Source of the DNA: a virus
Strand: one strand, 5' to 3'
IMG/VR virus record: IMGVR_UViG_3300037185_000097
Coordinates: 1 to 26,167 of that record
Length of the DNA stretch: 26,167 nt
The stretch's first letter is position 1. Each line of letters opens with the position of its first letter. Shown piece after piece: positions 2,129 through 23,552 of this stretch. Under the pieces are notes generated by a model. It was not told where the DNA came from. It did no database searches and worked only from the letters and a program-made list of their open reading frames with translations. The translations under genes were made by a program, and so were the position numbers.

Positions 2129-2130
2129 AA

Positions 2131-2724: not shown

Positions 2725-2735
2725 TGAGGGAAACC

Positions 2736-4289: not shown

Positions 4290-4290
4290 A

Positions 4291-4995: not shown

Positions 4996-5267
4996 ATGAA
5001 GCTGAGGAAAGGGGAAAAATATTACAACAAGAAGCAGAAGATTTAAAACAAGCGATAGCTGACAAGGAGAAAAAAACTACAGAAGATCTTAAAACAATTG
5101 GAACTTTTCTAGGAACAATAATTGGTCTTGCAATTGCAACACTTGTAGTATTTTATGCATTCCATTTAGGTTGGTACAAATCTTTTATTGCAGCTGCATT
5201 AATACTTATAATGATAAAAGTAAATAGTATAGCTCGAAAAGTAAGTGTGTTATATGAAAAAGTGTAG
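4992..5267 (+). CDS. coiled-coil membrane protein
   Basis: 91 residues. A charged helical N-terminus (residues 1-37, probable coiled coil) is followed by two hydrophobic helices (about 38-56 and 62-77). The ATGA start overlaps the endonuclease stop. It lies, with the small zinc protein after it, between parts 1 and 2 of the polymerase, so that break is not a simple single-gene insertion. No family is recognised. Confidence 0.65.
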   Translation: MNEAEERGKILQQEAEDLKQAIADKEKKTTEDLKTIGTFLGTIIGLAIATLVVFYAFHLGWYKSFIAAALILIMIKVNSIARKVSVLYEKV

Positions 5268-5391
5268 TTGTGGAGGAGAATACCTTCCTCTTAGGGAGGG
5301 GAATGAACTTCTCGGAAGGATTCCAGTTGAATTTAAATGTAATAAATGTGGGAAGATATGGGTCGAATATAGGAGGATAAAACGTGGATAG
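5254..5391 (+). CDS. 45-residue zinc-ribbon protein
   Basis: A short frame with CSCGG near the start and CNKCGKIW near the end, a typical four-cysteine zinc ribbon. It overlaps the previous gene by 14 bases and the next (DnaE part 2) by 8 bases. Its end carries AGGAGG (5371-5376), which serves the GTG start at 5384. The cysteine pattern and tight packing argue that it is real despite its size. Confidence 0.65.
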   Translation: MKKCSCGGEYLPLREGNELLGRIPVEFKCNKCGKIWVEYRRIKRG

Positions 5392-6460: not shown

Positions 6461-7148
6461 AGGAAATCATGGAAATCAAAAACAATATTATAATTATAAT
6501 AGAAATTTCTTTGAAAAAATAGATAATCCAGTAAAAGCATATATTCTTGGTTTTATAGTAAGCGATGGCCACATTCGAAAAGATTCTAGTGGATATTATC
6601 TTATGTTTAGTATAAAAAAAGAAGATAAATATCTATTAGAATCGTTTTGCGTTGTTTTAGGAGCTTCGATTCATGCACAAAATTTAGTTAAACGAAAAAG
6701 TTCAAATGATGGAAGTTATTATTTACGATTTGCCTCAAAGAAACTTGTGTGTGATTTGTATTCATTGGGAGTTCCTATTAAAAATAAATCACTTAAAGCT
6801 GTTCCAATTGATTGTAAAAAATATAACCAAGATTTTTGGAGAGGAATGTTTGATGGAGATGGGTCAATAGGTAAAGCTAGTAAAAATCAGAAAACTCCTT
6901 CTTTGAGGATAACTTTAACAGGAACTCAAGAAGTTTGTGAAGGATTTGAAAAATATTTAGGATATAATGGTTATATGCAAAAACATAAAAATTGTTATCA
7001 ATATCAAAAAACTGTTTCAAAATTAAAAGATATGGAAACAATTTATTCAAAAATTTATCTAAATTGTTCAATCCCATTTATCTATGAGAAAAAGGATAAA
7101 TTTGTTGAAATAATAAAAGAGAGGGAAATTTATGAAAAAAATAATTGA
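6447..7148 (+). CDS. LAGLIDADG homing endonuclease inside the polymerase gene
   Basis: 233 residues. The LAGLIDADG helices are ILGFIVSDGHI and DFWRGMFDGDGSI. ATG 6447 lies in the last codons of DnaE part 2 (14-base overlap) with AGGAGG at 6433-6438. At its 3' end GAGGG and, in another frame, an ATG at 7132 start DnaE part 3. It is flanked by polymerase sequence that is contiguous in relatives, so it marks an insertion site. No intein motifs (no Cys/Ser junction, no terminal His-Asn) are seen, and the host frame stops inside it. Confidence 0.88.
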   Translation: MGIGKGNHGNQKQYYNYNRNFFEKIDNPVKAYILGFIVSDGHIRKDSSGYYLMFSIKKEDKYLLESFCVVLGASIHAQNLVKRKSSNDGSYYLRFASKKLVCDLYSLGVPIKNKSLKAVPIDCKKYNQDFWRGMFDGDGSIGKASKNQKTPSLRITLTGTQEVCEGFEKYLGYNGYMQKHKNCYQYQKTVSKLKDMETIYSKIYLNCSIPFIYEKKDKFVEIIKEREIYEKNN

Positions 7149-8538
7149 ACATCCTATTTATCAAAAATTAACGAAGGATACCAAAGGACTTGTTATTTTT
7201 CAAGAAACAATGATGCAGCTTTGTAATAAGCTTGCGGGAATTCCATTAGAAGAAGCATATCGAATTGTTAAATTAATTTCTAAATCAAAGAAAGAAGAAT
7301 TAAAAGAATATAAAAAGAGATTTATCGAAGGTTCTATTTTGAATGGGGTAGAAAAAGAAGATGCTCTGAATATTTGGCAATCAATCGAGGAATCAGGTTC
7401 TTATGCGTTTAATAAAAGCCATGCTGTAGGATATTCAGCACTTTCATATCAAACAGCATGGTTGAAATACTATTATCCGAAGCAATTCCTAGTAGCGTTG
7501 ATTCATCACCCAAAACCTCAGAAAGATGAAAAAGAAAAAATGGTTTCTCAAGCTATTCGTGAATTAAGAAAGAATGGTTTTGAAGTAAGGGCACCAAATA
7601 TCAACAAATCTAAAAAAGATATCTATATCGCTGATGATGGAGAAATCTACATGGGCTTGTCGAGTGTTGCGGGGTGTGGAGATAAAGCTGCTGATGAGAT
7701 TATTTCGAACCAACCCTATGAAAGCTTTGATGATTTCCTTGTAAAAGTTCAGAAAAGAAAAGTTAATATTAAGATTCAGAAAAATCTTATTCAAGCTGGA
7801 GCGTTCGATAAATTTGGTAGAAGAGATGAGCTTTATTATTCACTCAGTGATGAAACCTTTGAAAAATGGGATAAAGAAGAGATACTTAAAAGAGAGATGC
7901 TTGTTCTCGATTTACCTTCAAAAGAACCTTTGATTAACTATTATGAGAATAAATACCCTCATATAGAATTAACTGATATTGATCAGATTGATTTTTCAGA
8001 CCCTATCGGTGAGGTTTGGATAAAAGGAATTATAACCAATTTTGTTACAAAGAAGGCATCGACTAAACTCGAAGAAGCAATAGACGTATTAAAAGAAATG
8101 GTCTACTTTGACATCGACGATGGAACAATGAAGGTCAATTGTTTCATGTCTCCTGAAATGTTTGATTTATATAAGCCTTTGATTGGAGATGGAGAAGCTG
8201 TTATTTTGAAAGCTCATACCTTTGGGCAGAAAGTTTATATAGATGGAGTGTTAAACTTAACAAAAGAAAACAATATTTCACTCGAAAAATATTCGATTGA
8301 TCGCCGACAAGATGAGGTCGACAACATGCATAGAAAACCAAGGTGGTCTATCAATGCAGTCCAGTCCATTACATATCATGTTTCAAAGAATGGGAAAAGA
8401 TATGGACGAATAACCTATGATGACGGCAATTTTGGACTATGTTTTAATATGAAAGTAGAAGATATACAACCAGGAGAAATTATTTGTTGGACAACAAGTA
8501 AAAATCCATTTATTAATATTGTAAAGAGGGTGGAATAA
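7132..8538 (+). CDS. dnaE: DNA polymerase III alpha, fingers/HhH/OB part (DnaE part 3)
   Basis: 468 residues. It opens with a short endonuclease-derived MKK and then IIEHPIYQKL and VIFQETMMQL, the DnaE segment that follows the palm. It continues with FNKSHAVGYSALSYQTAWLK, a helix-hairpin-helix (GLSSVAGCGDKAADEI) and an OB fold (residues about 325-370, MVYFDIDDGTMKVNCF). About 80 residues after the OB fold (NAVQSITYHVSKNGKRYG onward) are not recognised. No clear clamp-binding peptide is seen. The start follows GAGGG inside the endonuclease gene; the stop shares a base with the next ATG. It contributes the nucleotide- and DNA-binding parts that must join part 2. Confidence 0.9.
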   Translation: MKKIIEHPIYQKLTKDTKGLVIFQETMMQLCNKLAGIPLEEAYRIVKLISKSKKEELKEYKKRFIEGSILNGVEKEDALNIWQSIEESGSYAFNKSHAVGYSALSYQTAWLKYYYPKQFLVALIHHPKPQKDEKEKMVSQAIRELRKNGFEVRAPNINKSKKDIYIADDGEIYMGLSSVAGCGDKAADEIISNQPYESFDDFLVKVQKRKVNIKIQKNLIQAGAFDKFGRRDELYYSLSDETFEKWDKEEILKREMLVLDLPSKEPLINYYENKYPHIELTDIDQIDFSDPIGEVWIKGIITNFVTKKASTKLEEAIDVLKEMVYFDIDDGTMKVNCFMSPEMFDLYKPLIGDGEAVILKAHTFGQKVYIDGVLNLTKENNISLEKYSIDRRQDEVDNMHRKPRWSINAVQSITYHVSKNGKRYGRITYDDGNFGLCFNMKVEDIQPGEIICWTTSKNPFINIVKRVE

Positions 8539-8882
8539 TGGAATTACATATAATATATAAAGACAATGAAGGGGAACAGCCACAATTAGTTATGGAAGGA
8601 AATAAGGTAAAGGAAATTATAATTAAAGCTCCATTTATTTTAGAAATGCCTTCTGAGAGGATAGAAGATTATGACGATGAAGAAAATAGGTCTTTAACTA
8701 CCTATATTGCAGGAACTAAGTTATGTGGGAAATGTGGTATTGAACGACATAGAGATGAATATCATCCTCATCGAACGAATAAATTAGGAACCCAAGGATA
8801 TTGTATAGGGTGTATGAATAAAATAAGAAGAACATATAATAGAAAGAAAGCAGCCGAGAAAAAAGGAGAGGCTCAAAAATGA
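8538..8882 (+). CDS. zinc-finger protein of unknown function
   Basis: 114 residues. The N-terminal half is beta-rich and acidic. The C-terminal half has CGKCGIERHRDEYHPHR and CIGCMNKIRRTYNRKK, a four-cysteine finger with a basic tail, like the finger that precedes some phage HNH nucleases (compare 16226-16672). No HNH core is present. The gene overlaps the next by ATGA. Confidence 0.65.
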   Translation: MELHIIYKDNEGEQPQLVMEGNKVKEIIIKAPFILEMPSERIEDYDDEENRSLTTYIAGTKLCGKCGIERHRDEYHPHRTNKLGTQGYCIGCMNKIRRTYNRKKAAEKKGEAQK

Positions 8883-9595
8883 GACTCTCTAAATCTGCTA
8901 TTTTAAAATATCTTGCTTGTCCGGCTGATTTCAAATATGATTATATCTTAGATTTCAGACACCAAAGAGAAGCACCAGGTGAAGATTCTGCTTTAACAAA
9001 AGGGACTCGTATTCATCAGATTTTTGAGGATTTTTATAAGTCTCCATTGTTAGAAACATTAGAGGAACCTTATTATGACAACATATTAGAGATATTATAT
9101 ACACTTGAAAATGCTCACAAGTATGAAAATCATATGGAGAACTTTGCTGAATTTAATACACATCAGATCAAAACAAAAGGGATCGACAATTGGATGCCTC
9201 TTGATTTAGAGATGGAAGTGTTTGATAAAGAATTAAAATTCTTAGGTTATATAGATCGAGTCGATTTAGAAGAAAATGGGCTAAGGGTTATAGATTATAA
9301 ATCATCTAAGAAGGATAAACCAGTCAAACATTATTTACTTGAACTTGCTCTTTATGCATTAGTATATGAGAGATTGACAGGCAATAAAGTATATGATGCT
9401 GGTATCTATTTCAGTAATACAGGGAAACTAAGAACAACACCAATCACAGAAGAGGATAAAGAGAAAGCGATGCAAACTATCTTTAATGTAAGAGAAGCTA
9501 TTAAAATGAAACATTTTCCACCAAAGTCTAATTACTTTTGTAGATTTTGTGACAATCAAAATATTTGCACTACTGATATTGAGGCGAGTTTTTGA
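8879..9595 (+). CDS. Cas4/RecB-like PD-(D/E)XK nuclease with iron-sulphur cysteines
   Basis: 238 residues of the RecB/Cas4 exonuclease superfamily. GTRIHQIFEDFY gives the conserved His (H46), GYIDRVD the first Asp (D126), and VIDYKSSK the D-x-K core (D139, K141). Four cysteines in the Cas4/AddB pattern (C14, then C221, C224, C230) should hold a 4Fe-4S cluster. Such enzymes trim DNA ends; in viruses they serve replication or recombination. It lies among the replication genes and its stop overlaps the TTG start of an endonuclease (TTGA). No cas genes or CRISPR array are nearby, so a role in adaptation is unlikely. Confidence 0.85.
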   Translation: MRLSKSAILKYLACPADFKYDYILDFRHQREAPGEDSALTKGTRIHQIFEDFYKSPLLETLEEPYYDNILEILYTLENAHKYENHMENFAEFNTHQIKTKGIDNWMPLDLEMEVFDKELKFLGYIDRVDLEENGLRVIDYKSSKKDKPVKHYLLELALYALVYERLTGNKVYDAGIYFSNTGKLRTTPITEEDKEKAMQTIFNVREAIKMKHFPPKSNYFCRFCDNQNICTTDIEASF

Positions 9596-10263
9596 TTTCT
9601 AGAATTTGTCAAAATCCAAATTGTCAAAAAGAATTTAAAACATATCCTTCTCGAATCAAAACAGGAAAAGGAAAATATTGTTCGAAACAATGTGGAGGCT
9701 TGATGAAAAGAATACGGATAAAAAGAATTTGTCAAAAATGTGGGAAAGAATTTGAAATAATTCCTTCCGAAATTAAGAGAGGAAATGGGAAATATTGTTC
9801 GATAAAATGTAGGGATAATAAGGTAAAAAGAATATGTCAGAATTGTGGAAAAGAATTTGAAATAATTCCTTCTAGAATTAAAGGGAATATAGGAAAATTT
9901 TGTTCTCATTCATGTTCTGCTTCCGGTGAAAACAATCCACTTTGGAAAGGTGGAAAATCTTATGAACCTTATTGTATTCTTTTTAATAACAAATTTAAAG
10001 AAAGAGTTCGTGAATTCTGGGGAAGAAGATGTGGAATAAGTGGAATCACTGAAAAACAAAATGGGCGTAAATTAGACGTTCATCATGTGAATTATGATAA
10101 ACAAAGTTGTTGCAATACAACTATTCCATTGTTTATTCCTTTATCAAGAGAATACCATTCAAAAACCAATGGAAGTCGTGATTATTGGGAAGAAATGCTT
10201 ACGAATTACATTATGATTTGGTTTAACGGTGAATGTTATCTATCAAAGGAGGATTTAAAATGA
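9592..10263 (+). CDS. HNH homing endonuclease with three zinc fingers
   Basis: 223 residues from TTG 9592, which overlaps the upstream stop. The N-terminal half is three repeats of a Cys4 finger of the form RICQxCGKEFEIIPSxIK followed by GKYCSxxC. The C-terminal half (LWKGG, DVHHVNYDKQSCCN, NYIMIWFNGECY) is almost the same as that of the endonuclease at 4291-4995. The DNA-reading end has thus been exchanged while the cutting domain is kept. The last codons include GGAGG (10248-10252), serving the primase ATG that overlaps its stop. Confidence 0.85.
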   Translation: MISRICQNPNCQKEFKTYPSRIKTGKGKYCSKQCGGLMKRIRIKRICQKCGKEFEIIPSEIKRGNGKYCSIKCRDNKVKRICQNCGKEFEIIPSRIKGNIGKFCSHSCSASGENNPLWKGGKSYEPYCILFNNKFKERVREFWGRRCGISGITEKQNGRKLDVHHVNYDKQSCCNTTIPLFIPLSREYHSKTNGSRDYWEEMLTNYIMIWFNGECYLSKEDLK

Positions 10264-11210
10264 ATTATTTTCAGATTGGTTTGCCGCAACGAAAAGCAAT
10301 CCCTTTGAATCCAAGAGGAATTAAATTTGCCAAATCAATCATTAAGCGTTTAAATGGAGTTACAAATCTCTATCGCACAATTTATAATTTTAGTGATAGT
10401 CATATAAATTGGAGGGTGGCTATTATAGATAAATTATTTTTTGATTTTGATGTTGATGAAGAAGGCAAAGAACTCGAACATGCCCGAAAAATGCATGAGT
10501 ATCTACTCGAAAGGAACTTAAAACATACGATCTTTTTCAGTGGACGAGGGTTTCATATTTACCTCTTCACAAAAGAAACACATGCGTCAGAGTTGCAGAA
10601 TCCAATAGTCGCGGTGAAGAATGCACACCGAGAAATAGTTAAGCTTGCAGATGTCGAAGTTGATCCAGTAACCACAGACCTTATGAGAATAAGTAGGATA
10701 CAAAATACAGTTAATATCAAAAGTGGATTATTCTGTATCCCATTAACTGGTGATGAATTATATCGTTCAAAAGGAGAAATAATGCACATGGCGAGAAACC
10801 AGAGAAATGTTGAGCAAGATTTAAGCGGAAATCTTTTAAGCTTAGAGGAATATGACAGGGAAGCAGGATTATATGAATTTGCAGAGACTGAACCAATACC
10901 AATAGAGAATGAATTCTTAGAGAAAATGCTTCCAAGTTGTGTATTAAATTTATTATCAAAAGGAGATTGTGTTCGTGATGAAAGATATTTAATTATCACA
11001 GCAATGAGAGACAACTTAGTTTCCAGAGAAGACGTTCGAAAGACGCTAAAAACTTATCTTACTGAAAAAAAATACAAACACTGTGTCTTTGAAGAAGATC
11101 AAGTAAACTATTTATATGATAATGAACATCTTTTGTTTAAGAATTGTGAAACGATTCAACAAGATGGATTTTGTGTCGAGAATTGCAATGAAAAATTTGT
11201 TTATTTATAG
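10260..11210 (+). CDS. archaeo-eukaryotic-type primase, PriS catalytic domain joined to a PriL-like Fe-S domain
   Basis: 316 residues. The catalytic half shows FFDFDVDE (acidic pair D62/D64), SGRGFHIY (94-101) and TTDLMRISRIQNTVNIKSG (third acid D140 and the RxxxxxNxK block), the PriS pattern. From about residue 230, LPSCVLNLL, KHC, NCETI, GFC and ENC give the spaced cysteines of the PriL C-terminal iron-sulphur domain. One chain thus combines what host archaea split into PriS and PriL. It would make primers for the viral polymerase. The start is ATG 10260 with GGAGG 8 bases upstream; an in-frame start 27 bases earlier lies in the endonuclease gene. Confidence 0.85.
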   Translation: MNYFQIGLPQRKAIPLNPRGIKFAKSIIKRLNGVTNLYRTIYNFSDSHINWRVAIIDKLFFDFDVDEEGKELEHARKMHEYLLERNLKHTIFFSGRGFHIYLFTKETHASELQNPIVAVKNAHREIVKLADVEVDPVTTDLMRISRIQNTVNIKSGLFCIPLTGDELYRSKGEIMHMARNQRNVEQDLSGNLLSLEEYDREAGLYEFAETEPIPIENEFLEKMLPSCVLNLLSKGDCVRDERYLIITAMRDNLVSREDVRKTLKTYLTEKKYKHCVFEEDQVNYLYDNEHLLFKNCETIQQDGFCVENCNEKFVYL

Positions 11211-11221
11211 GAGGAAAAGAC

Positions 11222-11845
11222 ATGAATAAAATTCATCTTGATTCAAGAGAACCAGAAGATGTTCAAGAAGATTGTAAAAAAACTTTCGGAGAAGAAAATG
11301 TTGTAGTTGAATTTATGCTTATAGGAGATTTAATATTTCCAAAAGAAAATTTATGCATTGAAAGAAAACGAATAGGAGATGCTGTTGGAAGTATAATGGA
11401 TCAAAGAATATTTAGGCAAGCCGTAAATATGACAGAGAATTTCCAAACTTGTGTTATAATAATTATTGGTTCATGGAAAGAAATACAAAAAAGTAGATAT
11501 ATAAAATTTAGTGAGAAACAGTTCCTTGGAGCTTGTGCTTCATTGATGACTAAATATAATATGAAAGTCTTTTGGGTAGAAAACAATCGTCAATTTTGGT
11601 TAACATGTAAATATCTTACAGAAAAATGTAATGGAGATCCAATTGAATTAGAAACGATCGAACGAGTAAAGTTCAGTGGAGATAAGCATTTCGATATGTT
11701 AAGAATTTTAGTCGGCCCTAAAAAAGCACATCTTATTTTAGCAGAACATAAATTTAAAGACTTAGTTAAACTTACTAAGAAAGATTTGCAACAGATTAAA
11801 GGAATTGGGCCAGGAACAGCAGCAAGAGTAAAGGAGTGGTTATAA
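11222..11845 (+). CDS. XPF/ERCC4-family nuclease with HhH domain
   Basis: 207 residues. The ERCC4 nuclease signature is clear: HLDSREP near the start, then GDLIFP, CIERKRIGDAVGSI and DQRIFRQ, which match the GDxn-ERKxxxD core. The C-terminal 50 residues form a tandem helix-hairpin-helix ending KGIGPGTAARVKEWL. No helicase part is present, so it is like the nuclease end of archaeal Hef/XPF. It would cut flap, fork or branched DNA in replication or recombination. GGAGG lies just before the ATG. Confidence 0.88.
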   Translation: MNKIHLDSREPEDVQEDCKKTFGEENVVVEFMLIGDLIFPKENLCIERKRIGDAVGSIMDQRIFRQAVNMTENFQTCVIIIIGSWKEIQKSRYIKFSEKQFLGACASLMTKYNMKVFWVENNRQFWLTCKYLTEKCNGDPIELETIERVKFSGDKHFDMLRILVGPKKAHLILAEHKFKDLVKLTKKDLQQIKGIGPGTAARVKEWL

Positions 11846-12216
11846 TGGAAAAACAAGAATTTTTAGAATATGAAAGTTTTAATTCTGATGGAAAATTTAC
11901 TCATATAATATCAATTAGAAAGTTCAAAAGCCCTGCTATGAATAGTTTTTGGGAACAAATAACTTTTATGAATAGGAAATCAGGATGTCGTATGGCAATT
12001 GATAAAAATGGAGTAATAACATTCGATGGGAAATTTTATATTAAAGTTGATGAATATTTCTATGATGTTGATAGAACAGTAATCGAGAGACATGTCTTTA
12101 TTGAGGAAGATAAATATGATGATAGATTAATATTAAGTGGCCATAAAGGTCTTGTTGGTTTCAATTGCTCTTTAATAAAATCTATTGTTATAGAGAGTAC
12201 GGAGAATTTTGAATGA
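11845..12216 (+). CDS. hypothetical protein
   Basis: 123 residues from the ATG sharing a base with the upstream TAA. Beta-rich and acidic, with alternating hydrophobic residues (FTHIISIRKF, GVITFDGKFYIKVDEYF). No family is recognised. It lies between the ERCC4 nuclease and a small HTH protein and overlaps the latter by ATGA. The sequence reads as a compact globular protein with no membrane segment. Confidence 0.65.
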   Translation: MEKQEFLEYESFNSDGKFTHIISIRKFKSPAMNSFWEQITFMNRKSGCRMAIDKNGVITFDGKFYIKVDEYFYDVDRTVIERHVFIEEDKYDDRLILSGHKGLVGFNCSLIKSIVIESTENFE

Positions 12217-12422
12217 AATTTAAACCAACAAAAGAAAAACTCATAGAATGGAAAGATGCTGGATTAAGCTTCGCTGAGATGGGTCAAATCTGCGATTATT
12301 CTAAGTCTTCGATCAATCGCTTTTTTCACGAATATAAACTCGAACCACCGAAAACAGGGCGAAAGAAGGGATTCAAAGTGTCAGAGGAGACTCGAAGGAA
12401 AATGTCTGAGGCAGCAGAATGA
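12213..12422 (+). CDS. small helix-turn-helix protein
   Basis: 69 residues. The first 45 form a helix-turn-helix (LSFAEMGQICDYSKSSINRFFHEY). The rest (GFKVSEETRRKMSEAAE) resembles the NUMOD3-like SxETRxKMS helix found in homing endonucleases. It could be a small regulator or the leftover DNA-binding end of a lost endonuclease. ATGA overlaps on both sides. Confidence 0.65.
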   Translation: MKFKPTKEKLIEWKDAGLSFAEMGQICDYSKSSINRFFHEYKLEPPKTGRKKGFKVSEETRRKMSEAAE

Positions 12423-12682
12423 AACCACGTTTTGCATGGGACGGAAAAGCTATGCTATATGATATACAGAAATTTTATGATATCAATATATCAACAAATG
12501 AAGTTACGATTTTGGGACAAGTAACTCTTTCCTTTAAAGAAATTGAAGAAATTTGTCGTGAAATGAAAAGAGCAAAAAAAACATGGACATGTACCGCAAG
12601 ATCAAAAGCTGGTTGTCGAGAAGATTGTGATAATGAGCTTTGTAGCATACATATTTTTAAAAATAAACCTATAATAGAGTGA
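12419..12682 (+). CDS. hypothetical cysteine-containing protein
   Basis: 87 residues. The N-terminus is WDGKAMLYDIQKFYD. The C-terminal part has four cysteines (TCTARSKAGCREDCDNELC) that could bind zinc. It starts with an ATGA overlap with the HTH gene. No family is recognised. Confidence 0.6.
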   Translation: MKPRFAWDGKAMLYDIQKFYDINISTNEVTILGQVTLSFKEIEEICREMKRAKKTWTCTARSKAGCREDCDNELCSIHIFKNKPIIE

Positions 12683-12686
12683 TAAA

Positions 12687-13034
12687 ATGGACGAATTATA
12701 TGTAACAAATTTTTTAATGACCTATTTTACAGGTGTAACTGAAGTAAATTTCTTTGATTTTGCAAATCAAAGGCATGTATTAGTTCATTTCTTAGATGAA
12801 ACATCTTGGGATGCAAATTTAACAAAAGAAAAAATGCAAGTTCTTGCTCCAATATTTTTACTTGATAAAGAGAATCTTGATATGATGGCAAATCGAGATA
12901 AGGTGGAAACTATCATGTTCTTTACAGCTAGTAGAGGAGCAATAGATCAGTTTATGCAGGAATATACAGAAGAAAATAGACCAAAATATACAGCGGAAGA
13001 TGTCAAGAAAATAAAAGAGGAAGAACATGAATGA
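12687..13034 (+). CDS. hypothetical protein upstream of nrdD
   Basis: 115 residues, mixed alpha/beta, acidic C-terminus. ATG 12687 follows AGAGTGATAAA, the same leader seen before the gene at 17322. The last codons overlap nrdD by 8 bases, so the two are probably translated together. No family is recognised and it does not resemble NrdG (no CxxxCxxC). Confidence 0.6.
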   Translation: MDELYVTNFLMTYFTGVTEVNFFDFANQRHVLVHFLDETSWDANLTKEKMQVLAPIFLLDKENLDMMANRDKVETIMFFTASRGAIDQFMQEYTEENRPKYTAEDVKKIKEEEHE

Positions 13035-14781
13035 ATATATTAAACTAAACAGAGATAAATTATTAGGACTTATCGATGAATATGATAATAATAACGCTAA
13101 TGCTGTTCTAACACCAGGACAATTAGAGTATACTGCATTTGAATATCTAGGAAAAAAATTAGCTGAAACAATGCTATCTCCAGAATGTTTGGAAGCATAT
13201 AAAAATGGATTAATATATCTTCACGATTTATCACAATATCCATTTAAAGGACTTAATTGTATTACAATAGACCCAAGACATGTTCTTGGTAAGGGGATAA
13301 ACTGTTATGGTGATAACAACATTGGGGTAGTTGGTGGACCAGCTAAACATCTTGATACAGCAATGCATCATTTAGGGCAAGCAATGGGATTATCAAGTGT
13401 ATATCAATCTGGTGGTGTTGCATTAGCTTCATTAAACACATTTATCGCTCCATATTGTGTTGATGTTGAAGATGATGAAATTAAACAAGTGATTCAAAGC
13501 TTTGTATATTCAATGAATGAAGCCTTTAAAAATCGTGGAAGTCAAAGTTTATTCAGTAGTGTCAATTTTGATCTTGCTATGCCAAATTTTTTACTTGAAT
13601 CACCAGCTATGGGGCCAGGAGGAGAATATAATGGTGTTTATGGTGACTATAAAAAAGAAGCCATACATTTTGTAAAATTATGGAATGAAGTAGTAATTAA
13701 AGGTGACTATTATGGTAAACCAATATTTTTCCCCAATACCATTTATAATATTGATAATACAGATTTAGATAATTGGGATGATATATTTGATTATTCAGCA
13801 AAATATAGTTTACCTTATTTTAGCAGTGCTAAGAATCATAACGCCAATTACGTGTCTACTATGGGATGCCGTACTTCTCTGCCTTCTAATTGGACAGGCG
13901 ACCCTAACCAAGATTGTATGAGTACAGGGAACGCTGTATACACAACTTTAAATTTACCAATGATTGCACTTAATTCGACAAATATAGAAGAGTTCTATCA
14001 AAATTTGCAAAAATATTGTGATATAATTCATGATTATACGATCGAAAGATTAGAACATATTAAGTATATTTGGAATAAAGATATAGCTACATTCTATACA
14101 CAAGAATTCGAGGGTCAACCATTTTATAATTTAGATAACGCAACATTAGTGATAGGATTTGTAGGGCTAAGTGAAACATGTGAAATATTAACCGGTTCAT
14201 CTATAGTAAACAATACAGAAGTGGGCATAGAGATACTTTCTGCATTAAATTATATAGTAAATAAATATAAAGAAGAAGATGAATTACGATGGGGAATATT
14301 TGCAACCCCAGCAGAATCGGCAGCAAGTAAGTTGGCGGAAAAAACAGTAATGAAATATGGATTTAAAAAATCACGAGCAAAAGGAACTTATGATAGCCCA
14401 TACTATACAAATTCATCCCATGTACCTGTTGATGCAGATATTGATATAATAAAACGAATCAAAATCGAGGGACAATTACAAGAACTTACAAGTGCAGGAA
14501 ATATAATGAATATATATTTGGGAGAAGCCTATAGTGTACCATCAAGTTTGAAGAGTTTATGTAAAAAAATATATGATAATGGTAATGCATTCTTTTGGGC
14601 TTTTACAGGAGAATATAGTATCTGTGACAGTTGTGATACAACCTTCAAGGGTAATGTTAATAGATGCCCTTTGGATGATGGAGAAACAACTGTATTTTCA
14701 CGCGTTACTGGATATATGACAGCAACTAAGACTTGGAATAAAGGAAAATTAGCAGAATTTGAAGAGCGTAAAAGGTATTAA
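13027..14781 (+). CDS. nrdD: anaerobic (class III) ribonucleoside-triphosphate reductase
   Basis: 584 residues; turns NTPs to dNTPs by a glycyl radical in strict anaerobes. Visible features are GLNCITID with C78 and TMGCRTSL with C281 (the two catalytic cysteines), GSQSLFSSVNFD (171-182), and the radical loop RVTGY with Gly562 followed by WNKGK. Before it, CDSC and RCP form three of the four cysteines of the usual zinc site; the fourth is replaced (RCPLDDGE). The N-terminal ATP-cone of cellular NrdD is missing, as in T4 NrdD, so dATP shut-off is probably relaxed. No NrdG activase lies in the window; a host or distant viral one is needed. Confidence 0.92.
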   Translation: MNEYIKLNRDKLLGLIDEYDNNNANAVLTPGQLEYTAFEYLGKKLAETMLSPECLEAYKNGLIYLHDLSQYPFKGLNCITIDPRHVLGKGINCYGDNNIGVVGGPAKHLDTAMHHLGQAMGLSSVYQSGGVALASLNTFIAPYCVDVEDDEIKQVIQSFVYSMNEAFKNRGSQSLFSSVNFDLAMPNFLLESPAMGPGGEYNGVYGDYKKEAIHFVKLWNEVVIKGDYYGKPIFFPNTIYNIDNTDLDNWDDIFDYSAKYSLPYFSSAKNHNANYVSTMGCRTSLPSNWTGDPNQDCMSTGNAVYTTLNLPMIALNSTNIEEFYQNLQKYCDIIHDYTIERLEHIKYIWNKDIATFYTQEFEGQPFYNLDNATLVIGFVGLSETCEILTGSSIVNNTEVGIEILSALNYIVNKYKEEDELRWGIFATPAESAASKLAEKTVMKYGFKKSRAKGTYDSPYYTNSSHVPVDADIDIIKRIKIEGQLQELTSAGNIMNIYLGEAYSVPSSLKSLCKKIYDNGNAFFWAFTGEYSICDSCDTTFKGNVNRCPLDDGETTVFSRVTGYMTATKTWNKGKLAEFEERKRY

Positions 14782-14782
14782 A

Positions 14783-15127
14783 ATGATAGACTTAACAAAA
14801 TACGGTATGAATGAAATAAGAGAAATGAAGTGCATCGTCGTTCCATCGTGTAGTCGATGCGGCTTTTTCGATGCTACTTCGGAGAGTTGTGGATGCACAA
14901 ACCAATTTATTGCCGATACAGATTGTCCTTATCCAACGGTAGATGATACTATTATACTATTAGGAGGAATGGTTGAAATGACTAGGAAAGAAGAATTAGA
15001 AGTGGAAATAAATGAATTGATTAAAGAAGAAACTGAAACGAATGTAAATCCAAAGATAGATATATTAATAGATGAATATCATGAAATTTTAATGGCAGAA
15101 ATGAAAGAGAAGTTTGGGGATAGATAG
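14783..15127 (+). CDS. hypothetical cysteine-rich protein
   Basis: 114 residues. The first half carries cysteines (CSRCGFF, CGC, DCPYP) suggesting a metal site; the second half is a charged helical region. The ATG at 14783 lies 2 bases after the nrdD stop; an earlier in-frame ATG at 14759 is inside nrdD and less likely. No family is recognised. Confidence 0.6.
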   Translation: MIDLTKYGMNEIREMKCIVVPSCSRCGFFDATSESCGCTNQFIADTDCPYPTVDDTIILLGGMVEMTRKEELEVEINELIKEETETNVNPKIDILIDEYHEILMAEMKEKFGDR

Positions 15128-15742
15128 GTGGGTTTAATTTATAAAGCTGAAAATCTTGTTAATGGAAAATGTTATATAGGACAGACTAATCGTAGTTTAA
15201 AAAAAAGAATAAAAGGACATTACCATGATAGAAAATATGGTACTTATCCGTTTATGAATGCTTTGAATAAATATAATAAAAAGGATTTCAAATGGGAAAT
15301 TCTTGAAAATAATATTCAAGGACAATCCCATTTAAATATTTTAGAAAAATTTTGGATACTTCATTTAGATACCAAAAGTCCCAATGGTTATAATCTACAA
15401 AATGGCGGTTATAATTTTAAATGTCATGAATCTACTCGAAAGAAAATGAGTAAATCGAGTATGGGAGATAAAAATCCTATGTTTGGCAAAAGAGGGAAAG
15501 ATTCTCCACATTTTGGGAATAAACATACCAATGAAACTAAAAATAGAATGAGAGAACTAAGCCAAGGGAAATATCCTGGAGCTTCTTATAACAAAAAACA
15601 TAATCCAGAATATAGATGTTGGCTTTCTAGAATTCGTTATAATGGAAGTAGACGATCTTTAGGAGTTTATGAAGATCCAATTTCTGCTTCTTTGGTTTAT
15701 AAGTTGGTATTAGAAGAAATTATTAAATTAGGAGGGATTTAA
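15128..15742 (+). CDS. GIY-YIG homing endonuclease
   Basis: 204 residues from GTG 15128, directly after the upstream stop. The GIY-YIG domain is clear (GLIYKAENLVNGKCYIGQT, then LKKRIKGHY and the catalytic Glu in LEKFW). NUMOD3-like motifs follow (KNPMFGKRGKDSPHFGNKHT), then an AP2-like DNA-binding tail (WLSRIRYNGSRRSLGVYED). The final codons contain GGAGGG (15731-15736), which is placed to start the methyltransferase at 15744. Confidence 0.88.
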   Translation: MGLIYKAENLVNGKCYIGQTNRSLKKRIKGHYHDRKYGTYPFMNALNKYNKKDFKWEILENNIQGQSHLNILEKFWILHLDTKSPNGYNLQNGGYNFKCHESTRKKMSKSSMGDKNPMFGKRGKDSPHFGNKHTNETKNRMRELSQGKYPGASYNKKHNPEYRCWLSRIRYNGSRRSLGVYEDPISASLVYKLVLEEIIKLGGI

Positions 15743-15743
15743 A

Positions 15744-16229
15744 ATTACAAATGATGAATGGTGTACGCCTTTAGATTTTTTCAATGGTGTAAATAAATCT
15801 TTTGGCTTTACTTTTGATGTTTGTGCTTCGAAGAAGAATCATCTTCTTGATAAATATTGGACTATAAATGATAATGCCTTAGATAAAAATTGGGATCAAG
15901 ATGAAAATTATTATATGAACCCTCCTTATTCCAAAGGTATTAAAGACTTTATGAAGAAAGTACATGAGGAATCATTGAATGGTTGTAATTGTGTCGCTCT
16001 AATTCCTGCAAATACAGAAACAAGATATTTCCAAAAATATTGCTTAGATAGAAAAGCAGTTGATTCGATTTACTTTGTCGATGGAAGATTAAAATTTACA
16101 ATAGATCGAGTGTCTCAAGGTTCACCAAGATTTGCTTCGGTTCTTGTTTTTTTTGATAGTTCTTATGATTGGAAGCCCATTGACTGGTTTAAATGCGATC
16201 GAACGTTTAATAAGGTGACTGAGATTTGA
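15744..16229 (+). CDS. dam: phage-type DNA N6-adenine methyltransferase, probable AUU start
   Basis: About 161 residues. The open frame begins after a TAG at 15729 and has no ATG, GTG or TTG before residue 58. ATT at 15744 sits 8 bases after GGAGGG and gives (M)TNDEWCTPLDFF, the normal N-terminus of phage Dam-type enzymes. FDVCAS, the catalytic NPPYS and ALIPANTETRYF follow. Starting instead at the ATG at 15915 would remove the TP and DVxAS motifs and leave half a domain. It probably methylates adenine in viral DNA against host restriction or for timing. Its TGA overlaps the TTG of the next endonuclease. Confidence 0.8.
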   Translation: MTNDEWCTPLDFFNGVNKSFGFTFDVCASKKNHLLDKYWTINDNALDKNWDQDENYYMNPPYSKGIKDFMKKVHEESLNGCNCVALIPANTETRYFQKYCLDRKAVDSIYFVDGRLKFTIDRVSQGSPRFASVLVFFDSSYDWKPIDWFKCDRTFNKVTEI

Positions 16230-16672
16230 AAACTTGTACAAAATGTGGTGAAACGAAACCTGAAAATGAATTTTATTTTAATAAAAAAGGAAATTATTAT
16301 GGAGAATGTAAAAAATGTTATATTAAAAAAACAAAGAAATATCATTTGAAAAATCCACAAAAAAGATGGGCTTCTGGAACATTAGGTAAACATAAGAAAA
16401 GAGGGTTTCGAATTCAAATAACTATCGAAGAATTGGTATCTCTATTTGAACAAACAACTCATTGTATTTATTGTGATCAGAAAATGGAAAGAAATAAGGA
16501 AATATTATCTAGTTCATCACCCACCCTCGATATTTTAGATCCAAAAAATAAAGTGGTAGATATAAATAATATACAAATCATTTGCCATTCTTGCAATAGC
16601 TCAAAGCGAAATCGTACACATCAGGAATTGGTTGATTGGTGTAAGATTGTCGTTCAAAAATTTGACACATAA
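16226..16672 (+). CDS. HNH endonuclease with N-terminal zinc finger
   Basis: 148 residues from TTG 16226 (TTGA overlap with the methyltransferase stop). The N-terminal Cys4 finger is CTKCGETKPENEF plus CKKC. The nuclease part has CIYCDQKM, a TLDILDPKN strand and IICHSCNSSKRNRT, the Cys-framed HNH fold of phage nucleases. It is probably another mobile endonuclease. It is the last gene before the late promoter. Confidence 0.78.
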   Translation: MKTCTKCGETKPENEFYFNKKGNYYGECKKCYIKKTKKYHLKNPQKRWASGTLGKHKKRGFRIQITIEELVSLFEQTTHCIYCDQKMERNKEILSSSSPTLDILDPKNKVVDINNIQIICHSCNSSKRNRTHQELVDWCKIVVQKFDT

Positions 16673-17186: not shown

Positions 17187-17301
17187 CGGCGTGTAGCAAA
17201 GCGGTTTTGCACTCGACTGTAGGAACACGAGGATACTATGGGAACTCTGTAATAAACCAAGCAATCCTCGATATTGCAGATATCGAGATAACAGGGGTTC
17301 A
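17187..17301 (+). tRNA. tRNA-Tyr(GTA) with intron; 3' half incomplete
   Basis: The 5' exon (17187-17222) is well formed: acceptor strand CGGCGTG with the archaeal C1, T8 A9, D-stem GCAA/TTGC around AGCGGTT, anticodon stem CTCGA, and loop CTGTAG with anticodon GTA. After an intron, exon 2 starts at 17282 with A38 and TCGAG, completing the anticodon stem exactly. GGGGTTCA of the T-arm follows, but beyond about 17301 neither the T-stem nor the acceptor complement CACGCCG appears. An HNH-AP2 endonuclease gene follows at once. The gene is thus probably broken by that insertion. Confidence 0.65.
17223..17281 (+). other. archaeal BHB intron in tRNA-Tyr (canonical 37/38 site)
   Basis: 59 bases. Exon bases CTGT (17217-17220) pair with GCAG (17276-17279) as the 4-bp central helix. 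The 3-base bulges are AGG (17221-17223) and ATA (17280-17282), and cutting after the second base of each yields G37 joined to A38. The outer helix is the anticodon stem CTCGA/TCGAG. Inside, CGAGGAT (17228-17234) pairs with ATCCTCG (17264-17270). The inner helix next to the bulge is imperfect. Confidence 0.65.
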
Positions 17302-17321
17302 CAATATTCAAGAGTGATAAA

Positions 17322-17945
17322 ATGAAATGCAGAGAATGTGATGTTAATTTAACTGATGAGAATTGGCATAAATCAAACCAGAAACAAAAGAATTACATTT
17401 GTAAAGAACATTACAACCAATATAAACGAGAATTAAAAAGAGAACATAGTTTAGGAATAAAACGAAGACCTGCCAAAGAAAAAGGATTTATCTTTTATCC
17501 TAATATTAATGGTGAATTAATTGTAAAAATTCCATTAACTCAAGGAAAATATGCAAGAGTAGATATTCAAAATGCAGATAAATTTTCGAAATATCAATGG
17601 CATTTTGATAAAGGTTATGCAAAACGAAAACTTTCACAAAATAAACACATTTCAATGCATCATGACGTAATAGGTAAAATTGATGGTTTAATCATAGATC
17701 ATATAAACGGAAACCGTTTATATAATTGTGAAAATAATTTAAGGCATGTTACATATCGTGAAAATTCACAAAATCATGCGAATGCGAATTATTCTAGTAG
17801 ATATCCAGGTGTTTGTTATGTTAAAAGCAGAGATAAATGGCAAGCATCTATTCGAGTAAATGGAGAGTTTCGAACAATTGGTAGATATGATACCGAAGAA
17901 ATAGCATATGAACATTATTTAGATGAAGTAAATAAAATTCAATGA
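17322..17945 (+). CDS. HNH-AP2 homing endonuclease between two tRNA genes
   Basis: 207 residues. An N-terminal Cys/His finger (CRECDVNL, CKEHYNQY) is followed by an HNH_3 core (MHHDVIG, LIIDHINGNRLYNCENNLR) and an AP2 DNA-binding domain (SRYPGVCYVKSRDKWQASI, RTIGRYDTEEIAYEHY). The leader is GAGTGATAAAATG. It begins about 20 bases after tRNA-Tyr loses its match and its stop overlaps base 1 of tRNA-Gln. It is related to the damaged gene at 21064. Confidence 0.85.
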   Translation: MKCRECDVNLTDENWHKSNQKQKNYICKEHYNQYKRELKREHSLGIKRRPAKEKGFIFYPNINGELIVKIPLTQGKYARVDIQNADKFSKYQWHFDKGYAKRKLSQNKHISMHHDVIGKIDGLIIDHINGNRLYNCENNLRHVTYRENSQNHANANYSSRYPGVCYVKSRDKWQASIRVNGEFRTIGRYDTEEIAYEHYLDEVNKIQ

Positions 17946-18008
17946 GTTTCGTGGTCTGATGGCGGACTTTGAATCCGTCGATCCTGGGTTCGACTCCCGG
18001 CGAAACTA
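17945..18008 (+). tRNA. tRNA-Gln(TTG) with a shortened D-arm
   Basis: Acceptor AGTTTCG pairs fully with CGAAACT (7 bp, A1-T72 as in archaeal tRNA-Gln). The T-arm is CTGGG-TTCGACT-CCCGG. The anticodon arm is GCGGA-CTTTGAA-TCCGT with anticodon TTG, and the variable loop is CGATC. Only 8 bases (GTCTGATG) stand where the D-arm should have about 17, so it is either a decayed or an unusual D-armless-like tRNA. CCA is not encoded. Confidence 0.7.
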
Positions 18009-18009
18009 T

Positions 18010-18036
18010 ACGCTGAACGGCAGCGTCTTATTTTTT
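18010..18036 (+). terminator. hairpin terminator after tRNA-Gln
   Basis: ACGCTG-AACGG-CAGCGT, a 6-bp stem, then CTTA and six Ts. Only four As separate it from the GGAGG (18041-18045) of the protease gene, leaving no room for a separate promoter. Confidence 0.65.
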
Positions 18037-18052: not shown

Positions 18053-19321
18053 ATGGGACATAAATTTGATTTAATTAAGCATTCAGTTGCGATAGCAGCT
18101 GATAATAGTATCTTCCCTCTAACTCAGGAAGATTTAGATAAAGTATATACCTTTGATCATCCTGAAATTCAGAGCAGGCTATCGAAAATATCGCCAGAAA
18201 AAGCAACAGTTACCTCTTATTTACTTCCAAGTGTTTCATTACCACCTGTAATGAACCAAGGAGATCTAGGAGAATGTTTCGCATTTGCTGGTTGCGGTAT
18301 AGAAATGTTCTTTGATAGATTAGCTGATAATCTTCAGACAATGCTATCCCCGATGTTCTTAGGATATTGGAGTCGTTACATTTGTGGAGGGAATATTCCA
18401 CCAACAGGCGACGATGGATCGACAATTATCGCTACAATGCAAGCAATGCAGCTTTATGGTCTTTGTTTAGCAGCTACTTGGCCTTACATTGATGCAAATG
18501 AAAATATAGCACCATCACCAGCAGCTGATACTGAAGGTAAACTTTATGAAGTAGGTAAGTATTTTGCTATAAAAGATGATGATCCGAACAAAATAGCCAA
18601 CATGAAGCAGGCTCTTCAATCTAATCTTCCACTCATGGGTGGTTGGGATGTTGATGAGACTATAGAAAATGTAGGAGCAAGTGGAATTGAACCTTATGTA
18701 ACAAATCCACTTATAAATGGGCAACCAGCAGGACATGCAAGATGGATTATAGGATTTGACAATAGTATTGTTATTCCTGGAGCACCTATTCCTGGAGCAT
18801 TTAGAGTTCGTAACAGCTGGGATATAACCTGGGGAGATAAAGGCGACTCATGGGTTTCATATCAGACCTTTATAGACCAAGAGACAAACTGTATGGGTAT
18901 TACTCAGGCAACGGCGGGTTCAAACAATCCGCCTGCACCTGTAGTAACCTCAGATACAACAGTCTTAACAGTACCTGAAGTAGGAGCAATAGCAGGAAAA
19001 GCATTTACTATTACCGCAAAACTAGTTGATACAACCAAAGGTCTTGCTGTTCCAAATCAAACAATAATATTTGGTATTGACGGAACTAACATAGGATCTG
19101 CAAAAACAGATAGCACAGGAATAGCAACCTATATAACATCGCAAGTTAATGTTGGAACATATACAATAACAGCAGTATTTGTAGCAAACGGAAATTTCCA
19201 GAGTTCAGCAGGGAATAATTTGTTAGAAGTTACAGTAGCTCAACCAAGTGACGTTAAGACTCTTTTAGTAGAGGTTGAGAACTTTTTAAAAGTAGTCGAA
19301 AATTTTTTAAAAAACTTATAG
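18053..19321 (+). CDS. papain-like (C1A) cysteine protease with Ig-like domain
   Basis: 422 residues. The protease has the oxyanion glutamine and nucleophile in NQGDLGECFAFA (Q69, C75), the histidine in GHARWIIGFDN (H228) and the asparagine in VRNSWDITWGDKGDSW (N254), so the papain triad is complete. A proline-rich linker (NNPPAPVV) leads to a bacterial/archaeal Ig-like domain (about 300-397, TVPEVGAIAGKAFTITAKL) and a short amphipathic helix with a repeated VENFLK. There is no signal peptide. It may cleave host surface proteins, act on the virion, or take part in lysis with the lysin that follows. C1A proteases with surface domains are common in methanogens. Confidence 0.85.
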   Translation: MGHKFDLIKHSVAIAADNSIFPLTQEDLDKVYTFDHPEIQSRLSKISPEKATVTSYLLPSVSLPPVMNQGDLGECFAFAGCGIEMFFDRLADNLQTMLSPMFLGYWSRYICGGNIPPTGDDGSTIIATMQAMQLYGLCLAATWPYIDANENIAPSPAADTEGKLYEVGKYFAIKDDDPNKIANMKQALQSNLPLMGGWDVDETIENVGASGIEPYVTNPLINGQPAGHARWIIGFDNSIVIPGAPIPGAFRVRNSWDITWGDKGDSWVSYQTFIDQETNCMGITQATAGSNNPPAPVVTSDTTVLTVPEVGAIAGKAFTITAKLVDTTKGLAVPNQTIIFGIDGTNIGSAKTDSTGIATYITSQVNVGTYTITAVFVANGNFQSSAGNNLLEVTVAQPSDVKTLLVEVENFLKVVENFLKNL

Positions 19322-19354: not shown

Positions 19355-20062
19355 ATGGGACAAATAACAAGTGGGTCAATTGCAGTAGCAATGTTCCAGG
19401 ATATGCGAAATAGATATAATATATGGGTTAAAGCAAATCCTGGTAAATTACCATCAATAATTCGTACAATTAAAAATGGTCCAAACTTTGTTGCATTACA
19501 TACGTTCGATATTATGGTAGCTTGGTTCGATAAACAAGATCCTAAACCTACGATGATACCTATCAATCCTACAAATCCACAGAAGCCAACAGCAACAGTA
19601 GGCACAGATTTGTGGGTTAAACAATCTTTAGAATATCATAGAGGTACTTTTATAAATAACAAAGAAGATTTATATACTACCAAAAATATGGTTTATGCAG
19701 ACTATCCAAATCTAAAACACAGTAAAATTGATGCTGTGAATACTTATATTTGGTCTGGTGGTATAAATTGTGCTGAATTTTGTGAATATATAATGAAACC
19801 TATTTTTAATTGCTTAGGTCTTGTTATAGGTAAAGACTATTGGATAGCACATGGATATGTAACCTGTTCGAATGGTAAAGCTTACGGCCATTATTGGGGT
19901 GTGTTTAGTAATAAATTTGCTTTAAATGTTAAAATGTCTCCAGTGAATTCTGAATTTTATGATTTAGCTGGTGATGCCGAAGAAAAAAGACCACAAGGAA
20001 CACTAATTTGTAATGAAGGATCGTGTTACATAGATCGTTATGAAACAGATATTCCTTCTTAA
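19355..20062 (+). CDS. putative pseudomurein-degrading lysin (binding repeat plus cysteine peptidase domain)
   Basis: 235 residues from ATG 19355, 8 bases after GGAGG; an earlier in-frame TTG overlaps that site. Residues 8-55 look like a pseudomurein-binding repeat (VKANPGKLPSIIRT). A proline/threonine linker (62-82) follows, then a domain with Cys139 in INCAEFCEYI and His179 in YGHYWGVF. These are spaced as in transglutaminase-like peptidases such as the methanogen-phage endoisopeptidases PeiW/PeiP (family C71). The third (Asp) residue is not clear. It probably cuts the peptide bridges of the host wall. The family is assigned from motifs only. Confidence 0.6.
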   Translation: MGQITSGSIAVAMFQDMRNRYNIWVKANPGKLPSIIRTIKNGPNFVALHTFDIMVAWFDKQDPKPTMIPINPTNPQKPTATVGTDLWVKQSLEYHRGTFINNKEDLYTTKNMVYADYPNLKHSKIDAVNTYIWSGGINCAEFCEYIMKPIFNCLGLVIGKDYWIAHGYVTCSNGKAYGHYWGVFSNKFALNVKMSPVNSEFYDLAGDAEEKRPQGTLICNEGSCYIDRYETDIPS

Positions 20063-20082: not shown

Positions 20083-20445
20083 ATGGAGAAAATACCCCTT
20101 GTTTATGTTGCTGGAGCGTTAAGTGATCCCGATTGTTGCATGTATTTACAAAATGTAAATAAGATGAATGCTTTTGCAGCAGATTTACAGCTTGATTATG
20201 AATGTGGTGTATATATCCCTAGCAATGATTTGATCTATGGGATATTTTGTGGGTATTTAGAATACGAAGATTATGTTAAAAATAGTATGTGTATTCTTTT
20301 ACATTCAGATGCTGTTGCAATAGTCCCTGATTCAGAGGAAAGCGATGGAACAAATGCAGAAATAGATGAAGCAAAAGCTAATTCGATTCCTGTTTTAGAT
20401 AACACATTTAAAATAGAAAAATTTTTTAGGACGTGGTTAAAATAA
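20083..20445 (+). CDS. nucleoside 2-deoxyribosyltransferase-like protein
   Basis: 120 residues of the small Rossmann-like fold shared by deoxyribosyltransferases and DUF4406/DUF1937 phage proteins: VYVAGALSD at the N-terminus, VYIPSNDL, HSDAVAIVPD, and TNAEIDEAKANSIPV, where the Glu is the usual nucleophile. It may handle nucleosides or nucleotide-like signals; the real substrate cannot be told. AGGTGAT lies before the ATG. The gene overlaps the Ntn hydrolase that follows. Confidence 0.65.
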   Translation: MEKIPLVYVAGALSDPDCCMYLQNVNKMNAFAADLQLDYECGVYIPSNDLIYGIFCGYLEYEDYVKNSMCILLHSDAVAIVPDSEESDGTNAEIDEAKANSIPVLDNTFKIEKFFRTWLK

Positions 20446-21020
20446 CATGTATTGTCGGGTTAGTAGAAAATGGAACTGTTTATCTTGGAGGAGATAGTGC
20501 TACAAGTCGTGGAAATCGCAGGATTATCAAGAATAAAAGTAAGGTTGTTAAACGTGGTGAATTTATTATGGGTGGATCAGGGCTTGCAGTTGTTTCACAG
20601 TTGATGCATCATACAACGACATTGCCACCATTATATGAAAATCAAGAATGTTTAGATTATATGGTGAATACATTTTTACCAATGTTTAGAAAAACTATCA
20701 AAGAAGCAGGCCAAATGACAATTGAAGATCATAGAGAAACTACTCAAAATAATTTTTTAATCGGTTTTAGAGGACATTTATTTTCAATTGGTATTGATTT
20801 AAATGTAATAGAATGTATTGATAATTATGATAGTATTGGTTCTGGAGAAGAATTTGCATTAGGAGTATTATATGCTACAGAAGATAGTAAATTAAAACCA
20901 GAAGAACGCCTAATGAAAGCTCTTGAATGTGCTGCATATCATAATCATTACGTTTATCCTCCTTTTGAGATTGAAAGTATTAGTTATGAGATCGATCAAA
21001 AGAAATCGAAACATTTATAA
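20433..21020 (+). CDS. proteasome beta/HslV-like Ntn hydrolase
   Basis: 195 residues from GTG 20433. Counting from the threonine of KITCIVGL as Thr1, Asp falls at 17 (GGDS) and Lys at 33 (NKSKV), exactly the proteasome/HslV catalytic set, and GSGEEFALG matches the Ser-Gly segment near 130. The GTG would leave a four-residue propeptide and has its AGGA only one base away. An ATA at 20442, overlapping the upstream stop as ATAA and 10 bases after AGGA, would place Thr directly after the initiator Met, as in HslV. The target is unknown: host proteins, virion maturation or self-assembled degradation are options. No unfoldase is in view. Confidence 0.75.
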   Translation: MVKITCIVGLVENGTVYLGGDSATSRGNRRIIKNKSKVVKRGEFIMGGSGLAVVSQLMHHTTTLPPLYENQECLDYMVNTFLPMFRKTIKEAGQMTIEDHRETTQNNFLIGFRGHLFSIGIDLNVIECIDNYDSIGSGEEFALGVLYATEDSKLKPEERLMKALECAAYHNHYVYPPFEIESISYEIDQKKSKHL

Positions 21021-22557: not shown

Positions 22558-22711
22558 ATCTGCTGCTCTTGTAGGAATGATTATGGGAACATTAAGTGTA
22601 ATATCACTTTTTATATTCTTTCCTAATGGCCCTACCAATCAATTAGAAGTTGCAATTGTATTATTTGCAGGAATGTCTATAGGCTTATGTTTAGGAAGTA
22701 TTAGTCCTTAA
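22549..22711 (+). CDS. small two-helix membrane protein
   Basis: 53 residues. Two hydrophobic helices (about 4-22 and 34-51) are joined by FPNGPTNQLE. ATG 22549 overlaps the previous gene by 9 bases. The gene ends convergently with the CDF transporter (11 bases shared on opposite strands). No family is recognised. Confidence 0.6.
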
Positions 22712-23552
22712 CACAAACATGAACTTCTGCTATTTCGACGTTTTCGATAGTAAGAAGTTTCTCTTCTACCCTTTCTGCTATTTCGTGTGCTCGTCGAATT
22801 GATGTCGTCGATGGTACTTCGATGTGTAGCTCAATCGCTGCATAACTTCCCATATTATTTATTTTTATATCATGACATCCAGGAAGATTTAAATCCAGTA
22901 TTTCTTTTTTTAAACCTTTGGGTACTGTACCCATTAAAATATGTAGATTATTAATCCCGACTTCAATCGCTGTTTTTAATATAAATAACGAGACAACAAT
23001 TCCGAGTACAGGATCTAAAATAGGGAATCCTAATATTGCACCGCAGACACCAAAGAAAACCGCAACGTTAGATATGATATCTGTTTTTTTATTTGCAGCT
23101 ACCGATAATATACTGGGACTATTAAGCTCATTTCCAGCCCTCTTTAAATAAGAGGCGAGATAGATGTTTGCAAAGATCCCAATAAATGCCACAAAAGCGG
23201 CTGCTGGGCTAGGGGAAATAGCACCAGAAATGATCTTATTGTAACTCCCTAAAGCTATCTCTGCTGCAATTAATAGCAATATTCCAACTATTAATAGTCC
23301 AACTAGAGGCTCTATTTTTCCGTGTCCATAAGGGTGTTCTTCATCTGGTGGTTTGTGTCCAATTTTAAGACCGATAGCCATAGCTATCGTCATTAAAATA
23401 TCACTGAATTGGTCGGCTGCGAAAGAGATCAATGCGGAGCTGTTCGACGACAAACCGACAACAAAGTTTAGTATGGTGAGGACGACGTTTCCAATTAGCG
23501 AAACCTTTATTGCTCGGTTGGAAATTTTGTCTCTCTTATTTTTATCTATCAT
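22701..23552 (-). CDS. cation diffusion facilitator (CDF) metal transporter
   Basis: 283 residues of the FieF/YiiP/MamB family, normally a dimeric proton-coupled exporter of divalent metals. D47 and D51 (AADQFSD, helix 2) and N154 and D158 (ANKKTD, helix 5) form the transport site; HPYGHGKIEPL (73-83) is the family loop. The C-terminal cytoplasmic ferredoxin-like domain (ILMGTVPKGL onward to VEIAEVHVCV) is present. The Dx3D/Nx3D pair, rather than Hx3D in helix 5, resembles manganese-type members more than zinc ones. It is the last gene of the minus-strand operon and overlaps the gene before it by ATGA. Metal transporters are rare in viruses, so it is probably an acquired host gene. Confidence 0.9.
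   Translation of the reverse strand: MIDKNKRDKISNRAIKVSLIGNVVLTILNFVVGLSSNSSALISFAADQFSDILMTIAMAIGLKIGHKPPDEEHPYGHGKIEPLVGLLIVGILLLIAAEIALGSYNKIISGAISPSPAAAFVAFIGIFANIYLASYLKRAGNELNSPSILSVAANKKTDIISNVAVFFGVCGAILGFPILDPVLGIVVSLFILKTAIEVGINNLHILMGTVPKGLKKEILDLNLPGCHDIKINNMGSYAAIELHIEVPSTTSIRRAHEIAERVEEKLLTIENVEIAEVHVCVKD

Follow-up and report, generated by a model that had tools for sequence, protein, structure and literature searches.

The window considered here is the whole of a 26,167-nucleotide stretch of viral DNA (IMG/VR record IMGVR_UViG_3300037185_000097), and one of its loci raises the question of whether a virus whose genes hint at an archaeal host encodes a proteasome-type peptidase and, if so, where such a peptidase came from and what it may do. 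The coordinates and reading of the open reading frame were confirmed (Table 1), and its product is a proteasome-fold Ntn hydrolase in which Thr1, Asp17, Lys33 and a Gly-Ser-Gly segment are correctly spaced. In the numbering of the listed protein these residues are Thr5, Asp21, Lys37 and Gly136-Ser137-Gly138, the last being positions 132-134 when counted from Thr1. This canonical spacing had been remarked upon in an earlier, sequence-only reading of the locus, and goes beyond chance given the existence of homologues and a nearly full-length match to the phrog_1040 'peptidase HslV family' profile (E 2.1e-18, residues 3-192). Thr1, Asp17, Lys33, Gly43 and Gly132 are identical across all 81 aligned proteins, namely the window protein and 80 relatives. 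The fold model, the profile match and the catalytic residues agree on the predicted proteasome/HslV-type peptidase that the same reading had proposed.

Table 1. Positions of the peptidase gene, its predicted active-site elements, its candidate start signals and its upstream neighbours in the window.
Feature	Position	Strand	Remark
Papain-family C1 peptidase with bacterial Ig-like domain, probable lysis/cell-wall gene	18053..19321	+	
Pseudomurein endoisopeptidase (PeiP/C71-like), host-range marker	19355..20062	+	above Pfam cut-off
DUF4406 / nucleoside deoxyribosyltransferase-like gene	20083..20445	+	overlaps peptidase start
Shine-Dalgarno-like AGGACGTGGT	20428..20437	+	placed for start at 20442; overlaps GTG at 20433
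HslV/proteasome-like Ntn hydrolase	20433..21020	+	195 aa from GTG; 192 aa if AUA at 20442 starts
ATAA, candidate AUA start overlapping TAA stop of upstream gene	20442..20445	+	
Thr1 codon (catalytic nucleophile, predicted)	20445..20447	+	invariant, 81 aligned proteins
Asp17 codon	20493..20495	+	invariant, 81 aligned proteins
Lys33 codon	20541..20543	+	invariant, 81 aligned proteins
GGSGLAVVS, oxyanion loop and first turn of helix 1	20571..20597	+	replaces family GFTSSFRMG
Gly-Ser-Gly, active-site region	20838..20846	+	same place as HslV GSG in profile comparison

The structure was modelled with AlphaFold as a monomer only, from the alignment with 80 relatives, giving a mean pLDDT of 92.9 and a pTM of 0.88. 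The Ntn fold, on which the earlier claim had been made to depend, is predicted. Among solved structures the top match was BPH (Z 22.2, rmsd 2.0 over 172 residues), with residue 5 of the model aligned to chain residue 1 of BPH. HslV came next (Z 21.1) and 20S subunits scored Z 19-20.5, in a comparison where Z differences under 1 are ties and where fold alone separates the proteasome groups poorly. HslV and BPH also ranked best when a profile of the 81 members was compared with the PDB. BPH (PDB 5ovs/5ovt/5ovu; PMC5777263) has the closest fold, at about 17-22% identity to the window protein, but possesses a longer acidic pore loop (PMC8665760). HslV (ClpQ) has the fold, the Thr1 site and the GSG segment in common with the window protein. 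No HslU was recognised among the genes looked at in the window and its sister contig, both of which are fragments, and no ATPase partner was recognised in the window fragment.

For assignment to a group, sequence does better than fold. The product scored 20.8 bits with the NCBIfam HslV equivalog, short of the cut-off of 157.75, and matched Pfam Proteasome only below the Pfam cut-off. Relatives were found by tblastn in 163 phage records (best E 6e-25), on 24 plasmids, mostly rhizobial (best E 1e-32), and in at least 118 viral contigs. A genome pattern scan returned 20 bacterial genomes with relatives, many of them actinobacterial chromosomes, and no archaea among the 20, this being a single scan that detects only part of the family. 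Identity to relatives was about 24-42% among the matches listed, with a single near-identical contig. A 102-protein tree placed the window protein amid viral contigs, on a long branch (1.21). The gene is a member of the bacterial/phage 'peptidase HslV family' and not an archaeal 20S beta subunit. The suggestion that its product is akin to, or mixes with, host beta subunits is not supported, since the nearest relatives are bacterial and phage proteins, the nearest structures are BPH and HslV, and the score with the NCBIfam archaeal model arc_protsome_B was 18.6 bits, which did not reach the cut-off of 224.

Group I of Fuchs et al. 2021, comprising HslV, BPH, AAH, CPH, PPH and others, is described as exclusively bacterial and bacteriophage (PMC8665760). 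Within that scheme the window protein best fits the AAH-like group, on the basis of its size and the host range of its relatives, and this group has been reported from bacteria and phages only (PMC8665760). In keeping with AAH, the window protein has homologues of similar size in phages, in Actinobacteria and on plasmids of rhizobia, and both pairs of flanking helices of the AAH-type compact fold are also present in the window model. The window protein differs from AAH in belonging to a virus with archaeal host signs, in the unusual codon before Thr1 and in the absence of Arg49 and the SSFRMG motif. PPH (Fuchs 2021), which has about 140 residues and lacks helix 2, was excluded, the window protein having 195 aa with helices at 52-60 and 73-91. 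Connectase, with a two-helix insertion between strands 3 and 4 (PMC8665760), was also rejected, the model having no helix among its first six strands (residues 6-49). The phage proteins of phrog_1040 (such as Geobacillus virus E3 gp65 and Moorella phage MTATph1) have 36-37% identity over 91% of the window protein and the same catalytic residues, but the window gene differs in having ATA before Thr1, in having lost the Arg49/SSFRMG motif and in its place in a virus with archaeal host signs. Such genes are already known to be widespread in bacterial phages and bacteria. What is new is the setting: among the sequences checked, no other copy lies in a virus that shows archaeal host signs, and the open-access literature yielded no publication describing a proteasome homologue from an archaeal virus.

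The host signs come from the neighbouring genes. As had been noted earlier, lysis genes adjoin the peptidase gene, with the PeiP-like C71 peptidase and the papain-like C1 peptidase with its Ig domain lying upstream. Pseudomurein endoisopeptidase genes have been described as specific to viruses of methanogenic archaea (PMC9800368), and because the virus carries one, its host is likely to belong to the Methanobacteriales. A comparison of the C71 peptidase with 50,697 phage records matched Methanobacterium phage psiM2 and no other, and none of the 79 other viral relatives carries a C71 peptidase. The primase gave weak matches to archaeal PriS (NCBIfam, PHROG), and these make up all of the primase evidence, a PF01896 search having found no match in the near-identical or the sister contig. 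When the lysis genes and the primase served as queries, only near-identical contigs were retrieved. From the C71 peptidase with its psiM2 match, together with the weak PriS matches, the archaeal host that had previously been supposed appears likely.

PTH2 was considered as an archaeal marker and dropped, as the sister contig has it but so does L064, a contig with another relative of the peptidase. In L064 the peptidase gene is followed by a gene for a 622-aa protein read as a bacterial-type NAD-dependent DNA ligase. The sister contig (L143, 36,471 bases) overlaps positions 230-16366 of the window and encodes the PTH2 peptidyl-tRNA hydrolase, an SNF2 helicase and an IS605-type OrfB/TnpB-like protein (9888-10250, 4919-6685 and 13254-14420, respectively). 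The window itself holds, at 2724-8538, a bacterial-type DNA polymerase III alpha in pieces (PHP, NTPase, finger and HHH domains), with a uracil-DNA glycosylase domain fused N-terminally and with the pieces split by an HNH-type-like ORF (4291-4995) and a LAGLIDADG ORF (6447-7148). Homing-endonuclease-like ORFs are found at 1108, 4291, 6447, 9592, 15128, 16226, 17322 and 21064, some having LAGLIDADG, HNH or GIY-YIG/NUMOD3 matches and others being recognised by reading. An anaerobic ribonucleotide reductase NrdD, above the NCBIfam cut-off, lies at 13027-14781, and a cation diffusion facilitator (CDF) transporter gene is present in this viral record at 22701-23552 on the minus strand. Positions 17189-18021 have no alignment to the near-identical contig (L141).

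The manner in which Thr1 becomes N-terminal depends on the start codon. Among 111 relatives, the near-identical contig included, 109 have ATG, GTG or TTG immediately before Thr1; the window and that contig have ATA there. The prevalence of a usual start codon directly before Thr1 agrees with the literature, in which propeptides are restricted to proteasome beta subunits and HslV (PMC8665760). The duplex formed by GGACGTGGTT has an energy of -10.0 kcal/mol, with a spacing of 3 before ATA, and the listed GTG, three codons upstream, is without a Shine-Dalgarno sequence (-1.8 kcal/mol). Pairing of this strength was reached at 1.1% of random positions. It was also reached at 14 of the window's 955 ATA triplets, and at no in-frame ATA codon within a gene (0 of 140). 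Translation from GTG would place a four-residue leader, MVKI, before Thr1, with Ile directly preceding the nucleophile; in 20S autoprocessing, Gly precedes Thr1. A leader of this length is possible in the family, because the relative in L064 (8001-8567) has MKNL before Thr1 (ATG AAG AAT TTA ACT). Translation would thus begin either at AUA or at GTG with a MVKI leader needing removal, and the AUA start is somewhat favoured.

A second departure from the family lies beside the active site, where the SSFRMG motif of the relatives is GLAVVS in the window protein. In numbering from Thr1, position 49 is Arg in all 80 relatives and Val in the window, position 47 is Ser in 78 of 80 and Leu in the window, and the window differs from the family at every position from 47 to 51. 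The presumed oxyanion position 46 is Gly in the window and Ser or Thr in most relatives. SSFRMG and Arg49 are regularities of the present alignment and do not come from a published definition of the family. We take the 47-51 stretch, whose 20S numbering is offset by about one, to follow the oxyanion Gly and to include S1-pocket residues. Our reading is that loss of the motif may reflect a changed specificity.

The loss of Arg49 and SSFRMG could alternatively mean lost rather than altered activity, and the gene product might then be a proteasome-fold protein without peptidase activity. It might serve as a binding protein, or it might be a poison subunit interfering with protein degradation in the host. 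We regard this explanation as unlikely, although it is the strongest of the rival explanations. It draws on the disappearance of an otherwise invariant Arg, on the uncertainty that the start codon casts over exposure of Thr1, and on BPH, which assembles with free Thr1 and is yet inert in standard in vitro assays (PMC5777263), so that peptidase activity in a relative of BPH is not guaranteed. Nevertheless, Thr1, Asp17, Lys33 and both key Gly positions have been kept, and the gene in the near-identical contig differs at two sites only, both synonymous, which is weak evidence given so few changes. No tie to archaeal beta subunits is seen either.

A role in head maturation, with cleavage of scaffold or capsid proteins during virion assembly, is very unlikely. 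The gene does adjoin terminase or portal genes in several related viral contigs (e.g. L023, L025, L040, L051, L057, L058, L076 and L092), and portal genes were found near it at 22 of 82 loci compared with 2 of 20 control stretches, a difference that is not clear-cut. However, a prohead-type protease is also present in 20 of the 35 relatives with head genes nearby (S78 in 16, S14 in 4), the other 15 having neither of these two families, the only ones searched for, and several of them being fragments. This co-occurrence weakens the idea that the peptidase replaces an ordinary prohead protease and speaks against the virion-maturation role suggested earlier. In addition, several large phages have the gene in the company of thymidylate synthase, ribonucleotide reductase or NAD genes, and in the window it comes after the lysis genes, where no adjacent head gene was recognised. 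Nucleotide-metabolism neighbourhoods were set aside as a functional clue, thymidylate synthase lying near the gene at 5 of 82 loci against 0 of 20 distant control stretches, too few for a claim. The varied settings of the gene, together with the retained catalytic residues, suggest an accessory role for the protease, with host or viral proteins as its targets. That it forms a functional unit with the DUF4406 gene, as a nucleotide-pool module or toxin-antitoxin-like pair, is most improbable: the overlap is real (13 nt from GTG; 4 nt, ATAA, from AUA) and some large-phage relatives lie near nucleotide-metabolism genes, but among the loci compared the two-gene pair once proposed is confined to the window and the near-identical contig, the sole locus among relatives where phmmer finds a related neighbour, and a DUF4406 family search of 47 of 80 viral records turned up, in one further contig, a single weak match that fell short of the cut-off.

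The locus is probably best explained as encoding a small self-compartmentalising Thr peptidase of the bacterial/phage HslV-like type, which a virus of pseudomurein-walled methanogens took up from the gene pool of bacterial phages. Its translation would be coupled to that of the upstream DUF4406 gene. With an AUA start, removal of Met would expose Thr1, as in nearly all relatives; with a GTG start, the four-residue leader would have to be cut off to free it. The subunits may assemble into a homo-oligomeric ring, as a double ring in the manner of HslV and of the tetradecameric BPH and separate from the host 20S proteasome, in which Thr1 would attack peptide bonds of host or viral proteins through an S1 pocket altered relative to the phage family. 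A fuller version, in which a bacterial-type proteasome homologue operates beside the host 20S in an archaeal cell, from an AUA start coupled to the upstream stop and with a remodelled pocket directing what was a phage protease towards archaeal targets, is rather doubtful as a whole.

The prediction of a proteasome-type peptidase from a known phage family is well supported, and the likely host group is one from which this type had not been reported. If the virus does infect a methanogen, a second proteasome-type machine would enter the archaeal cytoplasm. The contrast between catalytic residues that have been kept and a motif of the relatives that has been lost makes the function of the phage protease testable, and the candidate AUA start offers a simple, checkable claim on translation in an archaeal virus.
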